Positions 362 through 14,898 of a stretch of DNA of 39,519 nucleotides are shown in pieces. The notes under the pieces are model-generated. The model searched no databases. It saw only the letters and a program-made list of their open reading frames with translations, and was not told the DNA's origin. Numbering within the stretch: position 1 is the first letter of the stretch; every line of letters begins with the position of its first letter. Made by a program: the position numbers and the translations under genes. The DNA is taken from positions 1 to 39,519 of the forward strand of contig NZ_KK211077.1 in assembly GCF_000620125.1 (NCBI RefSeq). Reading direction: 5' to 3'. Source of the DNA: Clostridiisalibacter paucivorans DSM 22131 (GTDB lineage: Bacteria; Bacillota; Clostridia; Tissierellales; Clostridiisalibacteraceae).

Positions 362-1768
362 ATGAAAGATATGTCTTATGATGCAGTCATCGGTAGAAAA
401 AATGACATAATGAAAGGGGCAGTAGGCATTGATTATACAGAAATGGAGTATGGTAAGATAGGATTCGATTATGAGGAATTAATGAAAAAAGTACCCTATT
501 CTTTTGAAAAGATTAGAGAAATTCAAAGAGAATCCAAGGTTGGAAATACACCGCTTTTTGAACTTAAAAATTTAACCAGTCTTGTAAGAAGTGTTAGCAA
601 GAAAGGAAAAGGAGCTAGAATTTTTCTTAAGGATGAATCAGCAAATTGCTCAGGGTCTTTTAAAGATAGAAGAGCAGCTCTTTCGGTTTATCATGCAACA
701 AAGATTGGATATAAGGGAGTAATTTCAGCTACTTCAGGAAACTATGGTGCAGCTGTAGCATCTCAAGCTTCTCAACGTGGTATTAAATCCATTGTCGTTC
801 AGGAGGTATTTGATTCAAGAAAAATAGGACAACCAGAGATAGTAGAAAAAGGAAGAAAATGTGAAGCCTTCAATTCTGAAGTTGTACAGCTTACTGCTGG
901 ACCAGAGCTTTTTTATGTATTTTTAACGTTGTTAGAGGAAACAGGGTATTTTAATTCCTCACTTTATTCACCATATGGTATTGCAGGAGTTGAGACTTTA
1001 GGCTATGAAATTGCTGAAGAGGTAATGAATCAAGAGGGTAAATATCCAGATGTAGTTGTAGCAACCCATGCAGGTGGAGGAAATCTTACAGGGACAGCTA
1101 GGGGATTAATAAAGGCTGGTGCTAGCAATACAAAAATAATAGGTGCATCTGTTGATTTGAAAGGACTTCATATGGCTTCTGATAAAGATTTCAATAGGAA
1201 ATCTTTTACGACAGGTCATACAGGATTTGGTATCCCATTTGCTACATTGCCTGATAGATCAGATGTCCCCAGAAATGCAGCTAGAGCATTAAGGTATATG
1301 GATCAATATGTTACAGTAAAACAAGGAGAAGTATTCTATGTTACACAGGCATTGGCAGTTCTTGAAGGGCTTGAAAGGGGACCAGCAGGAAATACATCTT
1401 TAGCTGCAGCGTTATCTATAGCTAGAGATATGGATGAAGATCAAATTATAGTTGTTCAAGAAACAGAATATACTGGAGCTGGTAAGCATCCAACTGCCCA
1501 ATTGACTTTTGCAAAGGAAAATGGAATCAAAATAAAAAGAGGAAATCCAATGAAAGAAATACCAGGGAAAAATATAGTTATACCTGAAAAGTTTAATCAA
1601 ATTAGTGCAAAGAAGATTGATTTGAATAAGCTAAAAAGATCATACATCAAAAATGCAGTGTCAAATATTCAAATCAATGAATTAACAGTGAAAGATATAA
1701 AGTTCTTGGCTGAAGATTGTAATTTGACTGAATCTAAGGTAAAAGAAATTCTGAAAGAAATGAAGTAA
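362..1768 (+). CDS. ortB: 2-amino-4-oxopentanoate thiolase beta subunit-like PLP enzyme (OrtB family)
   Basis: A 468-residue PLP enzyme of the threonine synthase/cysteine synthase fold. The PLP lysine is probably K101 in SGSFKDRR. SATSGNYGAAVASQ (about 122-135) and the phosphate-binding loop HAGGGNLTGTARG (about 237-249) are present. The N-terminal extension starting MKDMSYDAVIGRK and the overall length fit OrtB. OrtB works with the small OrtA subunit to cleave 2-amino-4-oxopentanoate with CoA into acetyl-CoA and D-alanine during ornithine fermentation. The start has GAGGAGG 10 bases upstream. OrtA is not adjacent, which is unusual. The alanine/glycine symporter gene two genes downstream suits an alanine-producing step. 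A threonine-synthase-like enzyme with another substrate cannot be excluded. Confidence 0.8.
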   Translation: MKDMSYDAVIGRKNDIMKGAVGIDYTEMEYGKIGFDYEELMKKVPYSFEKIREIQRESKVGNTPLFELKNLTSLVRSVSKKGKGARIFLKDESANCSGSFKDRRAALSVYHATKIGYKGVISATSGNYGAAVASQASQRGIKSIVVQEVFDSRKIGQPEIVEKGRKCEAFNSEVVQLTAGPELFYVFLTLLEETGYFNSSLYSPYGIAGVETLGYEIAEEVMNQEGKYPDVVVATHAGGGNLTGTARGLIKAGASNTKIIGASVDLKGLHMASDKDFNRKSFTTGHTGFGIPFATLPDRSDVPRNAARALRYMDQYVTVKQGEVFYVTQALAVLEGLERGPAGNTSLAAALSIARDMDEDQIIVVQETEYTGAGKHPTAQLTFAKENGIKIKRGNPMKEIPGKNIVIPEKFNQISAKKIDLNKLKRSYIKNAVSNIQINELTVKDIKFLAEDCNLTESKVKEILKEMK

Positions 1769-1885
1769 GAAATATATAATAGCTTAGATAGATTAAAAGG
1801 ATTGAAGGTAAAGGCTTTAAATAAAATTCGAAATATTCAAATAAATGGTTAATATAATAATTTATACACTGATAGGAGGAGAAAA

Positions 1886-6686: not shown

Positions 6687-6961
6687 TTATTTGATATTTT
6701 CCATAGCTTTTTTAGCAAATTCAGTTGTCACTATCTTTTCATAGGGGGCCCTCTTATCTAATTCTCCTGCCATTTCCATTATATCCATCATATGATTTAA
6801 TCCATCTTCTGTTAATACAGGGTCAGGAGTCCAAGTGTCCTGTTCTTTGTATCTATTGATTAATGATACAAGTATTTCCATGTCTTCTTCTGGGAATTGG
6901 GGTTGGATAGCCTTTGCTATTTCTTCAGCACTATGATTTTGAACCCATAACATGGCTTTAT
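6687..6961 (-). pseudogene. 3' half of interrupted ABC-transporter substrate-binding protein gene
   Basis: This is the C-terminal third of an NMT1/SsuA-like periplasmic-type binding protein. The host-derived part begins with KAM and continues LWVQNHSAEEIAKAIQPQF to the stop at 6687. It lacks its own start and signal peptide. The open frame runs upstream to 6974 only because it reads into the end of the inserted element (MYYID). Its missing N-terminal part is at 14016-14752, also ending ...IYKAM. Joining the two at the shared core ATAAAGC gives an uninterrupted 334-codon gene, the normal length for the family. As it stands, this piece is unlikely to be translated. See the mobile element entry. 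Confidence 0.93.
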
Positions 6962-6983
6962 CTATGTAATACAATTCGTAAAA
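6931..6983 (-). other. attL: left junction of the serine-recombinase element
   Basis: Core GCTTTAT (plus strand 6955-6961; ATAAAGC on the minus strand) is shared with the right junction at 14016-14022. Host sequence lies below 6955. Element sequence lies above 6961, including the arm ATTCGTAAAA at 6974-6983, which is the exact reverse complement of the arm at 13995-14004. The recombinase stop codon (6962-6964) directly touches the core. Confidence 0.88.
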
Positions 6984-8590
6984 TCTATTGCTTTAATATA
7001 TATATGAAGTTTATTTCCATCCCATACAATCTTGTCAATAAGTCTATGTATTATTTGTTGTTTTTCATGAAAGGTATATGCATCAGTATTTTTAATATTA
7101 TCTAATAATGCCAGTTGAATTTCTAAATCTAACTCTTTGATTATATCCATATCATTATATGATTTTATTTCATTGAGCTTGGATATTAGTGCTTGTATTT
7201 CAGTATCTATGTCATTTATTTTGTCCAAAATATATGTAGATGCAGCAGTATTTTTATTGTCAGAAATATACTCAACTAAATTTTCTATTTTTTCTTTTCT
7301 TTTATCAATTTCATTTATTATATTTTTCTTTTTATCTTTTTTAGTTTCTTTGTTGTTGACAAATGACTTTATCTCTTTTTTAAATTTAGACATTAGATAA
7401 TTATTATTAAAGGCAATATTTTTAAGGCTTTCTACTACAATATTATCTGCTTTAATAGCATTGAGGTTTTTCATGGAGCAAAGCCTTCCATTGGTGCGTT
7501 CTTTTCTCCTACATATATAATAAGCATATTTTAAATTGCCTTCTTTATCTCTAGAGACACGGGTAGATTTCATAGTTTCTCCACAGCTGCATTTTAATAG
7601 GGGGGTAATTAAGCTAGTAGTACTGGTGCCAGATTTAATAGATTTGTGTTTATTATTGTCAATAATATTTTGAACCTTAATCCAGTCTTTGGCAGGTATT
7701 ATCCCTATATGTTTTCCTACACCTATAAACCAATTTTCTTTTTTGTTGATAATCCACTTTTTCTCATCTCTTTTGGAATAACCAATCAATCCATTCTTGC
7801 TATTAAACTTCTTATAGTCACATATAGATGACCCAATATTATTAAAATATTCAAAGGATATTGGTTCAGCTGTACAATAAACGGGATTTCTCAGTATGTA
7901 GCTAATAGTAGATTGATTAAAAAAAGTTCCATTTCTTTTGACGTCATTTTGTATGAGATAACTTTCCACCTTTGTAAAGCTTTCTAATTTAAGATATTTT
8001 TTATATATGAGCTTAATTATTTCAATTTCTTTTGGTTCTGGGATTAGTTTATAGGATTTCTTCTTTTTGCCTTCATGGTCAATGGATATTATTTGTTTAG
8101 ATCTAAATCCGTAAGGAGTTTTACCCCCTAGCCATCTTCCACTTAAAGCTAGTCTCTGCATATTATCTCTTATTCTCTCGGCTATAGTTTCCCTTTCTAA
8201 CTGAGCAAAAACAGAGGATATATACATCATGGCTCTACCCATAGGGGTAGAGGTGTCAAACTGTTCTTTTATACTCACAAATGATATATCATATTTACTT
8301 AAAGTTTCAACTATTTGTGAGAAGTCTAATACATTTCTGCTTATACGGTCTAATCTATAACATATCAGTATATCAAATTTTTTCTTTTTAGCATCGTTCA
8401 TCATGATTTTAAATTTAGGTCTTTCAACATTGCCACCAGAAAATCCTTCGTCTTCATAGATAATTATATTGTGATTTACAGAATCAAAATGTTTATAGGC
8501 ATATTCCTTGCACATTTGGATCTGATTCTCTATAGACTCACCTTTGCAAGTAAATTTGGATTTGCGAGAGTATATAGCAACAGTGGACAC
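6962..8590 (-). CDS. Large serine recombinase/integrase
   Basis: A 542-residue recombinase. The N-terminal resolvase domain (about 3-150) has the catalytic serine S11 in YSRKS, then GESIENQ, DEGFSGGNVERP, RLDRISRN and a long helix through LERETIAERIRDNM. A recombinase domain follows (about 155-260). A zinc ribbon has C334, C336, C360 and C371. A coiled coil covers about 395-500. This is the full architecture of large serine integrases, with no visible damage. It starts at GTG with GGAGG 7 bases upstream. The last codon abuts the attachment core, so crossover takes place just beyond its own stop codon. It should integrate and, with a directionality factor, excise the 7-kb element. Such enzymes also drive the sigK skin elements. 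Confidence 0.95.
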   Translation of the reverse strand: MSTVAIYSRKSKFTCKGESIENQIQMCKEYAYKHFDSVNHNIIIYEDEGFSGGNVERPKFKIMMNDAKKKKFDILICYRLDRISRNVLDFSQIVETLSKYDISFVSIKEQFDTSTPMGRAMMYISSVFAQLERETIAERIRDNMQRLALSGRWLGGKTPYGFRSKQIISIDHEGKKKKSYKLIPEPKEIEIIKLIYKKYLKLESFTKVESYLIQNDVKRNGTFFNQSTISYILRNPVYCTAEPISFEYFNNIGSSICDYKKFNSKNGLIGYSKRDEKKWIINKKENWFIGVGKHIGIIPAKDWIKVQNIIDNNKHKSIKSGTSTTSLITPLLKCSCGETMKSTRVSRDKEGNLKYAYYICRRKERTNGRLCSMKNLNAIKADNIVVESLKNIAFNNNYLMSKFKKEIKSFVNNKETKKDKKKNIINEIDKRKEKIENLVEYISDNKNTAASTYILDKINDIDTEIQALISKLNEIKSYNDMDIIKELDLEIQLALLDNIKNTDAYTFHEKQQIIHRLIDKIVWDGNKLHIYIKAIDFTNCIT

Positions 8591-8779
8591 GATAATTCCT
8601 CCTTAATTACTTTATAACTATGTGATTTTATTATATTATCAATTGTTGTCATTTATGAAGGGATTATATATATTGGAACAATAGTTACTCTATTTAATTA
8701 GGATTTTGGAAATAATTATGTATGCTTATTTGGAGATATATGATATATTAAAAATAATCCAAGTTTAAAGGAGGTGAAC

Positions 8780-8839
8780 ACCGTTAAAAATACTACATAA
8801 TTTATGAAAGTTTTAAATGAGTTATGTATTTGAAACGGT
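8780..8839 (+). promoter_or_regulatory. Nested inverted repeat upstream of small membrane protein gene
   Basis: ACCGTT (8780-8785) pairs with AACGGT (8834-8839), AAATAC with GTATTT, and ACATAA (8795-8800) with TTATGT (8822-8827), giving a hairpin of roughly 16 pairs. A perfect ribosome binding site, AAAGGAGGTGA (8767-8777), lies just before it, yet no credible start codon follows at normal spacing. The next gene starts at 8849, after the hairpin. Folding could bring the distant ribosome binding site near that ATG, or the hairpin may bind a regulator. Confidence 0.4.
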
Positions 8840-8848
8840 AGGTTTAAT

Positions 8849-9169
8849 ATGTATACATTTTTTAATATTGTATTAATAGTTATTGCAATCCTATTTTTTA
8901 TAATGGGATATGTCTTTTTAACTGATAAAGAAGAGATTATTATGTGGAGTTACAATGACAAGTTAAAAAAGGTAAAAGATAAAGCAAAGTATAAAAAATA
9001 TCGGGGAAAGTACTCTATAGTGATGGGAACAATATTTCTATTAGTACCAGTATCTGTATATTTCATTGATGTTTTAGAGTTAAATAAAAAATTACTTTAT
9101 ATATGGTATGCTATCTTAGTAATTGTAATAGTGTCAAATATTGTTCAAGAAAAAAAGTATTTTAAATAA
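8849..9169 (+). CDS. Small three-helix membrane protein (possibly DUF3784-like)
   Basis: 106 residues. One transmembrane helix lies at about 5-24, followed by a charged cytoplasmic-type loop rich in lysine (about 25-55), then helices at about 57-75 and 83-99. The shape, with a helix, a soluble loop containing paired lysine and tyrosine residues, and two further helices, resembles the DUF3784 family, but I could not test this. No function can be assigned. It is the only plus-strand gene in the left half of the inserted element and diverges from the recombinase. Its ribosome binding site next to ATG is weak (GGTAGG) and a hairpin lies just upstream. An excision accessory role is conceivable only from its position. 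Confidence 0.65.
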   Translation: MYTFFNIVLIVIAILFFIMGYVFLTDKEEIIMWSYNDKLKKVKDKAKYKKYRGKYSIVMGTIFLLVPVSVYFIDVLELNKKLLYIWYAILVIVIVSNIVQEKKYFK

Positions 9170-9245
9170 GATTTTGTTCTGGACAACAAATTAATAACAG
9201 CACTGTGGACATTTTTGTTGCCAACACAATGGCTTTATTAATTGA

Positions 9246-9279
9246 AAAAACTCCTTACTAGTTTAAGCAAGGAGTTTTT
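9246..9279. terminator. Bidirectional rho-independent terminator
   Basis: AAAAAACTCCTT and AAGGAGTTTTT form the stem around an ACTAGTTTAAGC loop. It lies between the convergent small membrane protein gene and lipoprotein gene. Confidence 0.88.
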
Positions 9280-9299
9280 ATCTAATCTGCAAATAAGTA

Positions 9300-9890
9300 T
9301 TATTGACCTAAATTCATTAGATTTCCAGTGATAGCATTTCCTAATTCATTATCGGCTTTGATTAACCAAGAATCATCTTTTTTAACAAGATTTATGCTTA
9401 CAGTATTTGTAACCATAGGCACATCATCACTATTTACCTTTTCGAGAAGCTTATCTTCCATCATTGCTTCTATGTCGGTGCTGTTACCATCTTCACTTAA
9501 ACCTTCAGACATAGCTATTGAAAGGGACTCTTGCATTAGTTCACCTATTATTTTTGCTAAATCTGGAGCAGTTATTTCTGTATTAACAACTGCAGAATCT
9601 TCATTTACTTCTGAATCGATTATTTTGTATTCAATTTTACTAAACGCTTTTAAGAAAGCTTGACTGGATTTGCTCTCCTTATCTTCCATAAAGCTTTCTT
9701 TCATTTCTTTAATGCTACTATCCGTTTCGCCTTCTAGGTATTTTGTACCTTCTACTAAGTCGCCACTTTTATATAAATCTAGAAAAGCCTCTACAGTGCC
9801 TTCTGGAGTATTTGCTCCACTTCCACCGGAACATGCAACCATAGTAAATACTAAAACTAAACCTAATGCCAAACTTAATAATTTTCTCAC
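9300..9890 (-). CDS. Secreted lipoprotein with NTF2/DUF4878-like domain
   Basis: 196 residues with a classic lipoprotein signal. A basic start and hydrophobic run are followed by the lipobox MVAC, with C20 as the lipidated cysteine. A glycine/serine linker comes next. The mature part begins TPEGTVEAFLDLYKSGDL, the opening helix typical of NTF2-like/DUF4878 lipoproteins, and ends with a strand pattern around DDSWLIKADNELGNAI. This suggests a small extracytoplasmic ligand-binding or scaffold protein, without visible catalytic residues. It begins at GTG with GAGGGGG upstream. It is cargo of the inserted element, upstream of no obvious operon partner. The amidase gene starts about 950 bp away on the same strand and has its own terminator. 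Confidence 0.8.
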   Translation of the reverse strand: MRKLLSLALGLVLVFTMVACSGGSGANTPEGTVEAFLDLYKSGDLVEGTKYLEGETDSSIKEMKESFMEDKESKSSQAFLKAFSKIEYKIIDSEVNEDSAVVNTEITAPDLAKIIGELMQESLSIAMSEGLSEDGNSTDIEAMMEDKLLEKVNSDDVPMVTNTVSINLVKKDDSWLIKADNELGNAITGNLMNLGQ

Positions 9891-10024
9891 GATAAAGCCC
9901 CCTCTTTTAAAGTTATAAAATAGTATATGCTTATATGCAACTACCAGTTAATTATATTACATTGAGATAAAAAAAGGTGTAAAATATTGTCGAAAAGTAA
10001 AAATAAGTATTAGAGATGCATTCT

Positions 10025-10084
10025 AAAAATAGCACCTATTTTCTTACAAGAACAAAGTTCTAGTTGATAAATAGATGCTATTTT
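10025..10084. terminator. Long inverted repeat, probable terminator of the CwlD-like amidase gene
   Basis: On the minus strand AAAATAGCATCTATTT pairs with AAATAGGTGCTATTTT with one G-T pair. The loop contains a second small hairpin, AGAAC-ttt-GTTCT. It begins 18 bp after the amidase stop codon. The T-run at the 3' end is interrupted, so it may act as a cruciform or RNA-stability element rather than a strict terminator. Confidence 0.65.
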
Positions 10085-10102
10085 ATTAAATGACAGATTT
10101 TA

Positions 10103-10837
10103 TTATGCGTCCATTTGTTCTTCTTGTTTTGAATGATAATAATTCATAATCCCTTCAGCTAATGCTTGAGCACATTGCTCTTTGCCTTCTTCTGATGATA
10201 AAAATTCTAGGTCATTATTATTGCTCAGATAACCTAATTCAACCAGTACAGATGTAGCATTTGTATTTTTCAAAACATAAAGTTCTCCATCTTTTTCATA
10301 TCTTAAACCTCTGTTCTTAGTATATCCTATATTTGAAAGGCGATAATTTATTTCTTTTGCAAGGGCTTCATCTTCAGTATTTTCAAACCTACACCACACT
10401 TCAGTACCCTTGACATCACTGGATTCAGTAAAATCATTGGCGTGGATAGATAAAAAAAGGTCGGCATTAGCGTCATTAGAAATTTCACTTCTACCCATCA
10501 GTGATTCTATCTGGGTTGACCAAGGTATTTTATCCTTTTCACGAGTATATACTACTTTTACATCTTGCTCTTCTAATATTTTACCTAATTTTAGAGAGAT
10601 GTCTAAAACCAAATCTTTTTCATTTACTTCGTAGCTTTCATTTGCAGTACCAGGGTCATATCCACCATGGCCAGGGTCTATACAAATAGTAAAAATATAG
10701 TTAGGTGAACATTTTATAAACATAAAAGTAGACATAATAATGATTAATGTAAGGAAAGTAAATAGACGCCTACGTAAACGCCTCTTTCTTCTTCTTTCTC
10801 TTCTAATGGCCGTGAGACTTCTTCTAGAATGTATCAT
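10103..10837 (-). CDS. N-acetylmuramoyl-L-alanine amidase (Amidase_3, CwlD-like)
   Basis: 244 residues. A very basic N-terminus (about 5-24, mostly Arg/Lys) precedes one transmembrane helix (about 26-42), which anchors an extracytoplasmic Amidase_3 domain (about 50-235). Zinc ligands are visible: H57 in DPGHGG, E73 in NEKDL and H132 in SIHAN. The catalytic glutamate lies in LVELGYLSN. The size and single N-terminal anchor match CwlD, the amidase that prepares spore-cortex muramic-delta-lactam, but other anchored amidases look alike. The ribosome binding site AAAGGAG precedes ATG. The gene is cargo of the mobile element, an unusual place for a sporulation enzyme. A host copy of cwlD would show whether this is a second copy. 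Confidence 0.9.
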   Translation of the reverse strand: MIHSRRSLTAIRRERRRKRRLRRRLFTFLTLIIIMSTFMFIKCSPNYIFTICIDPGHGGYDPGTANESYEVNEKDLVLDISLKLGKILEEQDVKVVYTREKDKIPWSTQIESLMGRSEISNDANADLFLSIHANDFTESSDVKGTEVWCRFENTEDEALAKEINYRLSNIGYTKNRGLRYEKDGELYVLKNTNATSVLVELGYLSNNNDLEFLSSEEGKEQCAQALAEGIMNYYHSKQEEQMDA

Positions 10838-11011
10838 TTGACAAACTCCTTTTAATTAATTTTTAAATGGACATGTCTATATGCATAAATTGATTTATAA
10901 TATGTGACAATCTATTATAAAAATCCACATTATATTCAATTATACTACATAAAATTATAGATACATAGTAATTTTTTACCATTAAATATTTGTTAAATAT
11001 ATTTATATATA

Positions 11012-11305
11012 TTATTTAGATTTCAATAGGGAGTTTATGATTAATACATTGATTATAGAAATGATAACTAATCCTATACCAAACATAACGGTAAATCCAG
11101 CACCGACAGGATCTGGATATGACAATCCATAAGGTACAATAGTAGCTCCTACTATTAAAGCAATAACGATTATAGGTAGTATATTTTTCAAGAAGAAACT
11201 ATTGACATCCTTTTTGTGAAAAAAATAGACTAATCCACTTGTTATGCCAATAGTACCAATTATATATAAAGCAACAATAGATATACCTTTCATTTGTGTA
11301 GTCAT
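11012..11305 (-). CDS. Small hydrophobic membrane protein
   Basis: 97 residues with three predicted transmembrane helices (about 7-28, 41-60 and 70-92) and short loops. The loop around 59-68 carries YGLSYPDP. The gene has a good ribosome binding site (AAAGGAGG, 6 bases before ATG) and ends in a basic tail. I do not recognise the family. It follows the stalk-domain gene by about 60 bp on the same strand and is probably cotranscribed with it, so the two may form a membrane-associated pair within the inserted element. Confidence 0.7.
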   Translation of the reverse strand: MTTQMKGISIVALYIIGTIGITSGLVYFFHKKDVNSFFLKNILPIIVIALIVGATIVPYGLSYPDPVGAGFTVMFGIGLVIISIINVLIINSLLKSK

Positions 11306-11366
11306 CTTTTACCTCCTTTATTGTGTAATTCTAAATTTAGTAATATTTATCATGTATCCTAAGATA

Positions 11367-11903
11367 TTAGTTTTTTATATAATCTGATGCATCTTTATGT
11401 TCAGAAGAATTAATATGTTTTGAGTTATATATTTCAACAGCCTTTTTTATAGCATCAGTAGACATATGTGGAAGATATTCTTCAATGTATTTCCAGTTAC
11501 CTGTTTTTTGTACAATATCTAAAGCTTTCATGTCCACTTCATTTTGATTACCAGTAGTTGAAATTGTATTATCATTAGTATATCCATTCATAGTTAAATG
11601 AACTGAATTATCTTCATTATTCCATTTCACATTAAATTGCATATACTCTAACATTTCCCTCATAGGGGCATATAATAGTATCTCAGAATCTTCATTTTTT
11701 TTAATGGCAACTAATGGATTTTCTAAAGATATTTCTTCTTCATAAAAGTACACTTTAGAGCTATTGAAGATTGCTGATTCTATTTTTTCCGATGGAGAGG
11801 CATAAGATACCTCTGAAGTTCTTGAAATCCCCCAGAATATTGATGACCCTACTGTGCCAATCAACAGTCCTAAAATTAAACTTTTAATATGAAATTTTGT
11901 CAT
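11367..11903 (-). CDS. Membrane-anchored protein with copper-amine-oxidase-N-like stalk domain
   Basis: About 178 residues. One N-terminal hydrophobic segment (about 7-24) acts as a signal or anchor. Residues about 55-105 resemble the bacterial stalk domain annotated as copper amine oxidase N-terminal domain, with the pattern VYFYEEEISLENPLVAI, then APMREMLEYM and VKWNNEDNSVHLTM. A Ser/Thr/Asn linker and a helical tail follow. These domains are extracytoplasmic and often wall-associated in Clostridia, without enzyme activity. Three starts compete: TTG 11912, ATG 11909 and ATG 11903. AGGAG lies only 3 bases before 11909 but 9 before 11903, so the last is preferred. It is cargo of the mobile element. 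Confidence 0.72.
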   Translation of the reverse strand: MTKFHIKSLILGLLIGTVGSSIFWGISRTSEVSYASPSEKIESAIFNSSKVYFYEEEISLENPLVAIKKNEDSEILLYAPMREMLEYMQFNVKWNNEDNSVHLTMNGYTNDNTISTTGNQNEVDMKALDIVQKTGNWKYIEEYLPHMSTDAIKKAVEIYNSKHINSSEHKDASDYIKN

Positions 11904-12181
11904 TTGCATCAACTCCTATATTTTATAGACAAATTATATTAAATAGTTTAGGTCATGTCAATTTTTATCAATAGATTTATTTTATGACATAAAATATAGA
12001 TGATAAATACATATAAATAGAATATATAACATTACACAAACGAAGGGTTTTACAACTATTTTACAAAAATCATACAACTTTACCATAGATATAAAGTATA
12101 ATAGAAATGTAGAAAAAGATAGAATTTACGCTATAAATTTGCTATAGTGTATACATAGGATTATACAAATAGAGGTGCTAT

Positions 12182-13690
12182 ATGAAAATAAAAATAATTA
12201 GTGGAATTTTTTTTATTATTTTTCTAATGGGAATAGGTCAATCGGTTTTTGCAGATGGAGATTTTGATATAGGTGATACAGCAAAATGTAGTGCAGATGT
12301 GTTGAATATTAGAGATAAGCCATCAACTATGGCTAATCGTGTGGGAAAATTAAAAGAAGGAGAACGTGTTACTATAAAATCAGGGCCTATTTCTAAGGAT
12401 GGATATCTCTGGTATGAAATAAACAGCGGATGGGTAGTAGGAAAATATTTAGAATTAGATGCAAAGCAATCACAATTTAAGTATGCTTTTGTTGATGTCG
12501 ATTCTAAGTTGATGTTGAGAAGTAAGCCTAGTGTTCAAAGCAAGATTTTAAGTAGGTTAAATAATGGGACAAGGGTTCAAATTTTAGATGAAAGTGTTTT
12601 ATCAAAATCTCATGATTGGATAAAGGTTAATGCTGAAGGAAGTATTGGATATGTGTCAAAAGAGTATTTAAAATTTGAAGGTCAGTTATCTCAGAGGAAA
12701 GAGTCTTTAGAAGAAAAAATACCTAATAATACTCAAAGTATATCTAAAGGTATAGTTGAAGTTAAGGATATTCAGTTTAAACCAAATAAAGATCGTATAT
12801 CAGAGATTGAGATTATAACATCTAACAAGGCAAATTATGAAAAACATATCTTAGAACAAGCTGATAAGAGATTAAAACGTATTGTATTAGATTTAAAGGG
12901 AAGTGAAATTAAAGGTATTATTGACGAAGATTTTGATGGATATCCTGTTGATAAGATTTGGGTAGGCCCATTAAGTGGTAAAAAAGATGTGGTTAGGGTA
13001 GTTGTGACATTAAATCAAGATAAAGATTTTCACATTAATGAGCTAGAGGATAAATATGGGTTACAAATAAACTTTGAAAAAGACAAGAACAGTGGTAAAA
13101 CTATTGTTGTGGATCCTGGACATGGTGGAGATAATAATAAACTTTATAATGGACGCATAGGTGACAGTGGCAGTATATCTCCTTTTACAAATACAAAGGA
13201 AAAGGATTTGGCATTAACTGTTTCATTAAAATTGAGGGAAGTACTAAAGAGTAGAGGCTATAATGTTGTAATGACTAGGGAAAAGGATGAATACATAGAT
13301 CTGTATAAACGATCAGATATTGCCAATGCGGCCAATGCAGATGCATTTGTAAGTATACATTTTAATAGTACTGAGAATATTAGTAGTGCTACAGGGATTG
13401 AAACACTTTATTGTCCAAGTAACAAAAAGACTCAAACCAACCCAAAGGATCAATATGCCTTTGCGAAGATTATGCAGGATACATTGGCCAGTGGGGTAAA
13501 TAGAAAGAATAGAGGACTGTTGAATAAACCGGGGTATGTTGTAGTAAGAGAACCTAATATGCCATCGGTATTAATGGAATTAGGATTTTTGACTAATAAA
13601 GAAGAGGAAAGATTAGTTAGGACAAAGGATTATCAAAATAGGGCTGTTAAAGCAATTGCAGATGGATTGGACAAATATTTTTCTCAATGA
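12182..13690 (+). CDS. Secreted SH3b-AMIN-Amidase_3 N-acetylmuramoyl-L-alanine amidase
   Basis: 502 residues. A Sec signal peptide (about 1-24, ending VFA-DG) is followed by two bacterial SH3 domains (about 35-92 and 102-165), an AMIN-like domain (about 190-300, beginning VEVKDIQFKPN) and an Amidase_3 catalytic domain (about 308-500). Catalytic markers are DPGHGG, the glutamate in TKEKDLAL, the SIHFNS histidine and LMELGFLTN. The enzyme should cut the bond between N-acetylmuramic acid and L-alanine in peptidoglycan, with SH3 and AMIN domains placing it in the wall. GAGGTG lies 6 bases before ATG. The gene is the rightmost cargo of the inserted element and faces the opposite way from the CwlD-like gene. 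A strong terminator follows it. Confidence 0.95.
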   Translation: MKIKIISGIFFIIFLMGIGQSVFADGDFDIGDTAKCSADVLNIRDKPSTMANRVGKLKEGERVTIKSGPISKDGYLWYEINSGWVVGKYLELDAKQSQFKYAFVDVDSKLMLRSKPSVQSKILSRLNNGTRVQILDESVLSKSHDWIKVNAEGSIGYVSKEYLKFEGQLSQRKESLEEKIPNNTQSISKGIVEVKDIQFKPNKDRISEIEIITSNKANYEKHILEQADKRLKRIVLDLKGSEIKGIIDEDFDGYPVDKIWVGPLSGKKDVVRVVVTLNQDKDFHINELEDKYGLQINFEKDKNSGKTIVVDPGHGGDNNKLYNGRIGDSGSISPFTNTKEKDLALTVSLKLREVLKSRGYNVVMTREKDEYIDLYKRSDIANAANADAFVSIHFNSTENISSATGIETLYCPSNKKTQTNPKDQYAFAKIMQDTLASGVNRKNRGLLNKPGYVVVREPNMPSVLMELGFLTNKEEERLVRTKDYQNRAVKAIADGLDKYFSQ

Positions 13691-13718
13691 CTTTTAGATT
13701 GATTTTATAAGGTAAGAT

Positions 13719-13755
13719 AAAAAGCTGTAGGGAGGTGCCTTCCTACAGCTTTTTT
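13719..13755 (+). terminator. Rho-independent terminator after SH3-amidase
   Basis: AAAAAGCTGTAGG and CCTACAGCTTTTTT form a 13-bp stem around GAGGTGCCTT, with a T-run at the 3' side. Confidence 0.92.
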
Positions 13756-13929
13756 AGTATGCCTATGACGGAAGCAGTTTTGTATTATGTTTTAAAATAT
13801 AAAAAGTAAGAAAATGGTATAAAAAAGTTTGAAATTATAAAAAATGGGTAAAATATCTAGTAAGAAAATCAAATGAGAGTAAAAAATATAAAGAAATAAT
13901 CATAACTAATTATAGATAACAGTATTGCT

Positions 13930-13968
13930 TTTATCGTCTACCTATCACCCCCTTAGGTAGGCGATAAA
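13930..13968. repeat. 14-bp inverted repeat near attR
   Basis: TTTATCGTCTACCT (13930-13943) and AGGTAGGCGATAAA (13955-13968) pair along 14 bp with a single G-T pair, around an 11-base loop. It lies inside the element, 48 bp from the right attachment core. There is no T-run on either strand, which argues against an ordinary terminator. A binding site for an excision or regulatory protein is possible. The rest of 13756-13996 is AT-rich and holds no gene. Confidence 0.6.
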
Positions 13969-13994
13969 TATATGTATAAATCTAAAATATGAGT

Positions 13995-14045
13995 TTTTAC
14001 GAATAACAATTCATAGCTTTATATATAGCATTTGTAAAACCTTGA
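13995..14045 (-). other. attR: right junction of the serine-recombinase element
   Basis: Core GCTTTAT (14016-14022) matches attL. The element arm TTTTACGAAT (13995-14004) is the reverse complement of the attL arm at 6974-6983. Beyond 14022 lies the host gene (...FTNAIYKAM). After the core the element adds only NCYS and a stop to the truncated host protein. Confidence 0.88.
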
Positions 14046-14752
14046 ATTGCTTCTGGATTTTCATCCATGAATTTTTTTGTTGCGGAATAGCATGTATATG
14101 GAAGATAGCCTCCTTCCTTTCCTATTGATGCCAATATATGAGCCTTGCCTTCACGTTCAAGGGAAGATGCTACTGGTTCAAATAAAGTAACGTAGTCTCC
14201 TTCTCCGCCAGTGAAAGCGCCTGCCATAACGGCAAATTGTATATCTGTTCTGACAGTCAAATCTTTACCTGGTATTAGTCCATTTTTCTTAAGGACATAC
14301 TCCAATGTCATTTCAGGCATGCCACCTTTTCTACCGCCTATTATAGTTTTTCCCTTCAGTTTATCAAAGGTGAAGTTTGGATCAGGTTCTCTACCTACTA
14401 AGAAGGAACCATCTTTTTGTGTTAATTGAGCAAAATTGATAGCATAATTTTCCCTTCCTTGGTTAAATACATATACAGATGCTTCTGGTCCCATAAACCC
14501 TATATCTGCTTGACCACTTAGTAGTGCAGTCATAGATTTATCGGCACCTTTACCATTGGTTAATTCTACATTTATACCTTCTTCTTCAAAGAATCCTTGA
14601 GTTATAGCTACATATTGAGGGGCATAGAATACAGAGTGGGTTACCTCAACTAATCTTATATTTGTCAATTTGTCATTTTCACATCCTGTAAAGAATATGC
14701 CCACAATAAGTAATATAGCTAAGACTATAGAAATAAGTTTTGTTTTATACAT
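13997..14752 (-). pseudogene. 5' part of interrupted ABC-transporter substrate-binding lipoprotein gene
   Basis: The frame encodes 251 residues, 247 of them host-derived. It has a lipoprotein signal with lipobox FTGC (C24) and an NMT1/SsuA-type binding fold. Typical stretches are FYAPQYVAITQGFFEEEGINVEL-like sequence near 43-65, GQADIGFMGPE, and FDKLKGKTIIGGRKGGMP. The family delivers thiamine precursors, sulfonates, nitrate or related small molecules to an ABC importer. Insertion of the element replaces the last 87 codons with NCYS-stop. The missing C-terminal lobe helps form the hinge and ligand cleft, so the product is probably inactive. The start is ATG 14752 with CGGAGGG upstream. No permease or ATPase genes are adjacent. 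Excision would restore a 334-residue protein. Confidence 0.93.
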
Positions 14753-14898
14753 TGAAATCCCTCCGTAAAGTAGTTTTATAGTATTATATTCACGTCAAAT
14801 AAAAGGGTTACTGATGATAAAATATAACTATTTTGTTATAATAATAATATATGTGAAAATTACATAGAATTGGCCTGAAAGGAGACCATATATCATAA

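Follow-up and report, generated by a model that had tools for sequence, protein, structure and literature searches.

The 50-bp sequence that forms when the two inner ends of a 7,061-bp element of Clostridiisalibacter paucivorans DSM 22131 are joined is almost certainly the attP of the large serine integrase encoded in the same DNA, and the element as a whole is probably a skin-type intervening element, inserted in a sporulation gene and excised in the mother cell. The DNA analyzed was a stretch of 39,519 nucleotides (the window), in which the element ends in two copies of the 7-bp core GCTTTAT (Table 1) and interrupts the gene of an ABC substrate-binding protein. The biology of the case lies in this interrupted gene and in the skin-type relationships of the integrase; the palindrome is ordinary.

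Table 1. Features of the element, its attachment sites and the split genes (window positions, except in the last row).
Feature	Position	Strand	Basis or remark
attP half-site 1, TTTTACGAAT-TGTATTA-CATAG-ATA	6959..6983	-	recomputed, DNA search
Outer 10-mer (ZD-type motif) of attP half-site 1	6974-6983	-	recomputed, DNA search
attP half-site 2, AAG-CTATG-AATTGTT-ATTCGTAAAA	13995..14019	-	recomputed
Outer 10-mer of attP half-site 2	13995-14004	-	recomputed
Core copy 1, GCTTTAT (ATAAAGC on -)	6955..6961	.	central AA 6959-6958
Core copy 2, GCTTTAT	14016..14022	.	central AA 14020-14019
attB outer motif, half 1, TTTTACAAAT	14030..14039	-	9/10 to attP outer motif, 5 bp nearer center
attB outer motif, half 2, ATGGGTTCAA	6939..6948	-	6/10 to ATTCGTAAAA, 5 bp nearer center
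Large serine recombinase, 542 aa	6962..8590	-	Pfam domains, conserved residues, model, fold matches
Element body	6962..14015	.	ORF annotation, profile searches
DUF3784 protein	8849-9169	+	element cargo
Lipoprotein	9300-9890	-	element cargo
CwlD-like amidase	10103-10837	-	element cargo
97-aa membrane-like ORF	11012-11305	-	element cargo
Cu-amine-oxidase-N protein	11367-11912	-	element cargo
SH3 amidase	12182-13690	+	element cargo
5' part (residues 1-247) of split SsuA/NMT1-type substrate-binding protein gene	13997..14752	-	profile and frame
3' part of split substrate-binding protein gene	6687..6961	-	joins 5' part in frame
Sigma-K-like promoter of split gene, AACC-N15-AATATAATA	14782..14809	-	relaxed pattern in 19/21 orthologues
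Split sigK, same genome (L177, contig C5:56500-69500)	5' part 11418-11858, 3' part 1473-1868	-	9,681-bp insert

The joined inner ends have the minus-strand sequence TTTTACGAAT-TGTATTA-CATAG-ATAAAG-CTATG-AATTGTT-ATTCGTAAAA, a 50-bp pseudo-palindrome in which each half-site contains two motifs. An earlier sequence-only reading of this DNA had described such a palindrome, centered on AA within the core and invisible at either junction alone, and recomputation bore it out: 18 of the 25 paired positions match, including 10/10 in the outer and 5/5 in the inner arms, and the symmetry axis runs between the two A's of the core (6959/6958 and 14020/14019, plus-strand numbering), placing AA/TT on the axis. 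The two halves lie 7 kb apart and the symmetry appears only once they are joined. The interval quoted in that reading, 6962-7000, has to be amended, as it covers only one half-site (6959-6983), which falls within the final codons of the recombinase gene, the other half lying at 13995-14019; the stop codon of that gene (6962-6964) does abut the core, as had been noticed.

Palindromic attP sites with a central dinucleotide are the norm for serine integrases (PMC3783163; PMC5595907), and the palindrome itself is therefore not unusual. In the structure of the Listeria innocua (LI) integrase the zinc-ribbon domain reads positions 16-24 of the attP half-site, and the rule for serine integrases is that the zinc-ribbon motif lies 5 bp closer to the center in attB than in attP (PMC3783163). 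Comparing the outer 10-mer of attP with the reconstructed attB at successive offsets gave a match count that peaked at an inward shift of 5 bp on both sides, with at most 5/10 at other shifts. The attB outer motifs together score 15/20 at this shift, a value that 4 of the 78,938 positions in the window reach; once the inner motifs are counted too, the true attB scores 22 and the rest of the window at most 20. Because attB repeats the outer motif at the 5-bp shift, we conclude that the site is attP, that the joint is right and that the AA at the core center is the likely exchange dinucleotide, the cut position being predicted from the sequence. The same shift is seen when the window element is pooled with five other well-bounded ones, three inserted in an ABC-ATPase gene and two in a subtilase gene: over these six the outer motif matches at 61/108 positions at shift 5 versus 19-39 at shifts 0-4 and 6-10, in a statistic in which the three ATPase-gene elements have one target in common and are not independent. 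To enter it, an element had to be tied to a homologous split gene and to have a core of 7 bp or more; most sigK elements, whose core could not be placed, were left out. An automated att search via short shared cores at 22 related loci returned mostly noise where the core was 4-7 bp.

The two readings that would deny the site its function are both very improbable. One holds that the palindrome arose by chance from the joining of two AT-rich ends and that the boundaries are wrong; the low GC content (29%) does raise the background to 0.29 matches per pair, but a score of 18/25 at a fixed center was reached by 2 of 200,000 joins between randomly drawn window positions (binomial 9e-6, i.e. ~1e-5), its chance is still ~1e-4 when some 10-20 centers are allowed, and the 10/10 outer arms alone have a chance of 4e-6. 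The symmetry statistics and the independent attB shift match led us to reject it, and the exact restoration of the host frame and the recurrence of the same architecture in related elements also speak against it; it was on the attB shift, the frame and the related attP sites that the earlier assignment to a serine integrase, with its boundaries, held up. The other, no more credible, takes the symmetry for a transcription terminator or regulator-binding site at a gene end. Half of the site does lie at the end of the recombinase gene, but in the integrated state the palindrome is absent from both junctions, arising only when ends 7 kb apart are joined, and the terminator reading was rejected as neither junction gave a terminator-like match.

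The recombinase harbors the Pfam domains Resolvase (PF00239), Recombinase (PF07508) and Zn_ribbon_recom (PF13408) in this order, all above their cut-offs. Its catalytic Ser11, in a YSRKS motif, and the R/D residues occupy invariant columns, and the four zinc cysteines (334/336/360/371) are present and invariant in 16 homologues. The predicted model has two long helices (398-444 and 449-499, pLDDT ~70-90) that make up a coiled-coil hairpin (398-499) in the C-terminal domain, and its best fold matches are the SPbeta, phiC31, Bxb1 and LI integrases, with TM-scores that are low because domain placement is uncertain. Identity to characterized recombinases is at most ~50%. In the integrase tree the enzyme is related to the skin recombinases, forming a long lone branch inside the skin-related family, and its position is uncertain owing to the length of that branch. 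Among 109 relatives examined, 69 adjoin a split sigK, a proportion that is not an unbiased census, the relatives having been collected by likeness to sigK-type integrases. Others split ABC ATPase, subtilase, oxidoreductase, comM or pilB genes, and the last three show that the family also targets genes outside sporulation. No sigma-E or sigma-K motif was found upstream of the window integrase gene, and three sigma-E-like matches upstream of the relatives' integrase genes are at chance level; such a promoter region is compatible with C. difficile, where the recombinase gene CD1231 is constitutive (PMC5025042).

Joining the flanks of the element restores an intact in-frame SsuA/NMT1-type substrate-binding protein of 334 aa, which is undecayed and has kept its conserved residues. 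The gene is present in 89 of 249 genomes of the order (Sporosalibacterium faouarense included), spoIVA in 91, and the two occur together in 87 (Fisher p 2e-59, uncorrected for phylogeny); they were also gained or lost together within two families (f5 and f16). Upstream of the gene a relaxed promoter pattern, (A/C)AC(A/C)-N15-17-(C/A)ATAnnnT(A/G), occurs in 19 of 21 orthologues versus 0.41 expected and at most 3 in shuffles. It resembles the sigma-K promoters of C. difficile, with -35 AC and -10 CATATAAT (PMC3789822); the -10 of the split gene (TATAAT) fits sigma-A too, whereas the conserved -35 does not. The C. difficile sigma-K regulon contains an ABC ATPase (ytlC), a permease and an ABC transporter fragment (PMC3789822). 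The distribution of the substrate-binding gene, which follows that of spoIVA, and its conserved sigma-K-like promoter make a role in sporulation probable, and the element thus appears to lie within a sporulation gene. In four relatives (L081, L082, L083 and L084) the 3' end of the uncut gene is duplicated 0.8-14 kb downstream, at 71-99% identity, which looks as though this end of the gene had served other insertions or duplications.

Further genes are split in the same genome. On contig C20 (L077: 304-5125) a 3,240-bp element with a 19-bp core splits an SsuB-like ABC-ATPase gene beside its permease gene; its integrase is 47% identical to the window integrase and its attP symmetry is 18/25. Several families of the order have the ABC-ATPase gene cut at an identical residue. 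A 17.9-kb element in another genome (G023; attP 19/25) and a 6.9-kb element in Alkaliphilus sp. NP8 (attP 16/25) lie in this gene too, and two further bounded elements split a subtilase gene. All these elements were bounded by way of the genes they split, and comparison with their attP sites, which the earlier reading had proposed, revealed palindromic sites of the same build. The split ABC-ATPase gene has a sigma-K-like promoter in 6/6 cases and occurs in 87 genomes, 85 of them in common with the 89 that have the substrate-binding gene. A third related integrase, on contig C36 (L078/L003, 1-2657), abuts the 3' part of a subtilase gene whose 5' part is not on that contig.

The sigK gene of this genome is also split, by an insert with the core CATAGATAAT whose removal restores the full SigK frame. 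The insert holds chemotaxis-receptor-like, MATE-type and phospholipase-D-like genes; no serine recombinase was found among its ORFs, and it may need a recombinase encoded elsewhere, acting in trans. The inner motif CATAG-N6-CTAT(G/A) is found in three attP sites, those of the window element, of the C20 element and of this split sigK, while the outer motif differs among them, a pattern that would follow, as we infer, from a conserved recombinase domain combined with a zinc ribbon that dictates site specificity.

No phage structural or replication gene was found in the element, where PHROGs matches are restricted to the integrase and amidase families. Two cargo proteins (10103-10837 and 12182-13690) are Amidase_3 members, CwlD-like and below the family cut-off, and the 502-aa amidase starts with a signal-peptide-like stretch. 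Sigma-K-controlled amidases exist in C. difficile; no sigma-K motif was found upstream of either cargo amidase gene. Nor was a recombination directionality factor recognized among the element ORFs, and this is the main weakness of the skin-type reading. To our knowledge, such factors share no common sequence. Because none was recognized, excision via a factor encoded elsewhere, excision via an unassigned cargo protein and loss of the ability to excise are all possible, and the factor may act in trans. A 72-aa ORF next to the C20 integrase gene (L077:3093-3311) has homologues near the integrases of other elements, which makes it a candidate directionality factor; the window element contains no homologue of it.

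The explanation to be taken most seriously beside a skin-type element, though we regard it as unlikely, is that the gene was inactivated by a plain mobile element, or by the remnant of a defective prophage, that entered through a normal serine integrase, and that any excision is not tied to sporulation. The substrate-binding gene is split at this site in one genome only, and nearly all of the 88 same-order genomes have an uncut orthologue. A gene broken by a recent, fortuitous insertion would therefore fit too; the lack of a recognized directionality factor, the integrase relatives in comM, pilB and oxidoreductase genes, and the integrase of Terrisporobacter phage TPELB_ph1, 42% identical to the window recombinase, point the same way. 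A broken gene, however, is not what the joined frame looks like, intact and with its conserved residues; moreover, the target is linked to sporulation, this genome has two more split genes linked to sporulation, and the element is without phage structural genes.

Among known systems, the A118/LI integrase also has a 50-bp pseudo-palindromic attP with a central dinucleotide, the same domain order, and a zinc-ribbon motif at half-site positions 16-24 that lies 5 bp inward in attB (PMC3783163), but its outer motif is TTTAGTATC rather than TTTTACGAAT and its target is not a substrate-binding protein gene. Like the skin elements in sigK (C. difficile CD1231/CD1234 and B. subtilis SpoIVCA; PMC5025042), the window element has a large serine recombinase at one end and splits its gene in frame, but the host gene is not sigK and no directionality factor is recognized. 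The gin element in gerE of Bacillus cereus shares the non-phage cargo, a short core (9 bp versus 7 bp) and AA as the predicted exchange dinucleotide, set within an inverted repeat; unlike the window element, it measures 28.6 kb, has three recombinase genes and undergoes demonstrated sporulation-specific excision with GirC and GirX (PMC5595907). The yin element in yabG, a sigma-K-controlled gene of Clostridium botulinum, is likewise strain-specific, with one serine recombinase bearing the same three Pfam domains, but it is prophage-like, and its excision and circle have been seen by PCR (PMC10747680). Sporulation genes known to be split are sigK, spsM, spoVFB, gerE and yabG (PMC10747680); no earlier report of a split ABC substrate-binding gene was found in the literature searched.

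From the computed site anatomy, boundaries and frame restoration, together with the class and family context of the integrase and the association of the host gene with sporulating genomes, we propose the following course. Two integrase dimer halves would bind the two 25-bp attP half-sites, the recombinase domain reading the inner CATAG/CTATG and the zinc-ribbon domain the outer motif, and strands would be exchanged at the central AA. Integration into the attB inside the substrate-binding gene, a step that needs the integrase alone, would have split the gene and inserted the 7.06-kb element. By analogy with skin elements, the integrase and a directionality factor would then excise the element in the sporulating mother cell; excision should need such a factor, as it does in the C. 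difficile skin (PMC5025042). Excision would rejoin the substrate-binding frame exactly, and the sigma-K-type promoter would express the transporter protein late in sporulation. That this excision is developmentally programmed we hold to be rather likely by the same analogy, with somewhat less confidence than the skin-type explanation as a whole.

The attP is ordinary for its enzyme class, and the host gene is new for skin-type elements. The finding provides a clean attP/attB pair for a recombinase only distantly matched by characterized ones, and a skin-type element in a substrate-binding gene that is found almost only in the spore formers of the order. The split substrate-binding gene and the split ATPase gene point to a conserved, uncharacterized sporulation transporter, of which the ATPase and the substrate-binding protein may both be part; the two loci are non-adjacent, and co-occurrence and matching promoters are what suggests that ATPase, substrate-binding protein and permease form one transporter. 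More tentatively, sigK, the ABC ATPase, the substrate-binding gene and possibly the subtilase gene could all be split by one recombinase family, so that late-sporulation proteins are assembled through coordinated excision. Whether gene-splitting elements are scattered accidents or reflect a shared timing of mother-cell genes thereby becomes testable. Lastly, the window element probably marks a new case of gene-reassembling DNA excision in spore formers.
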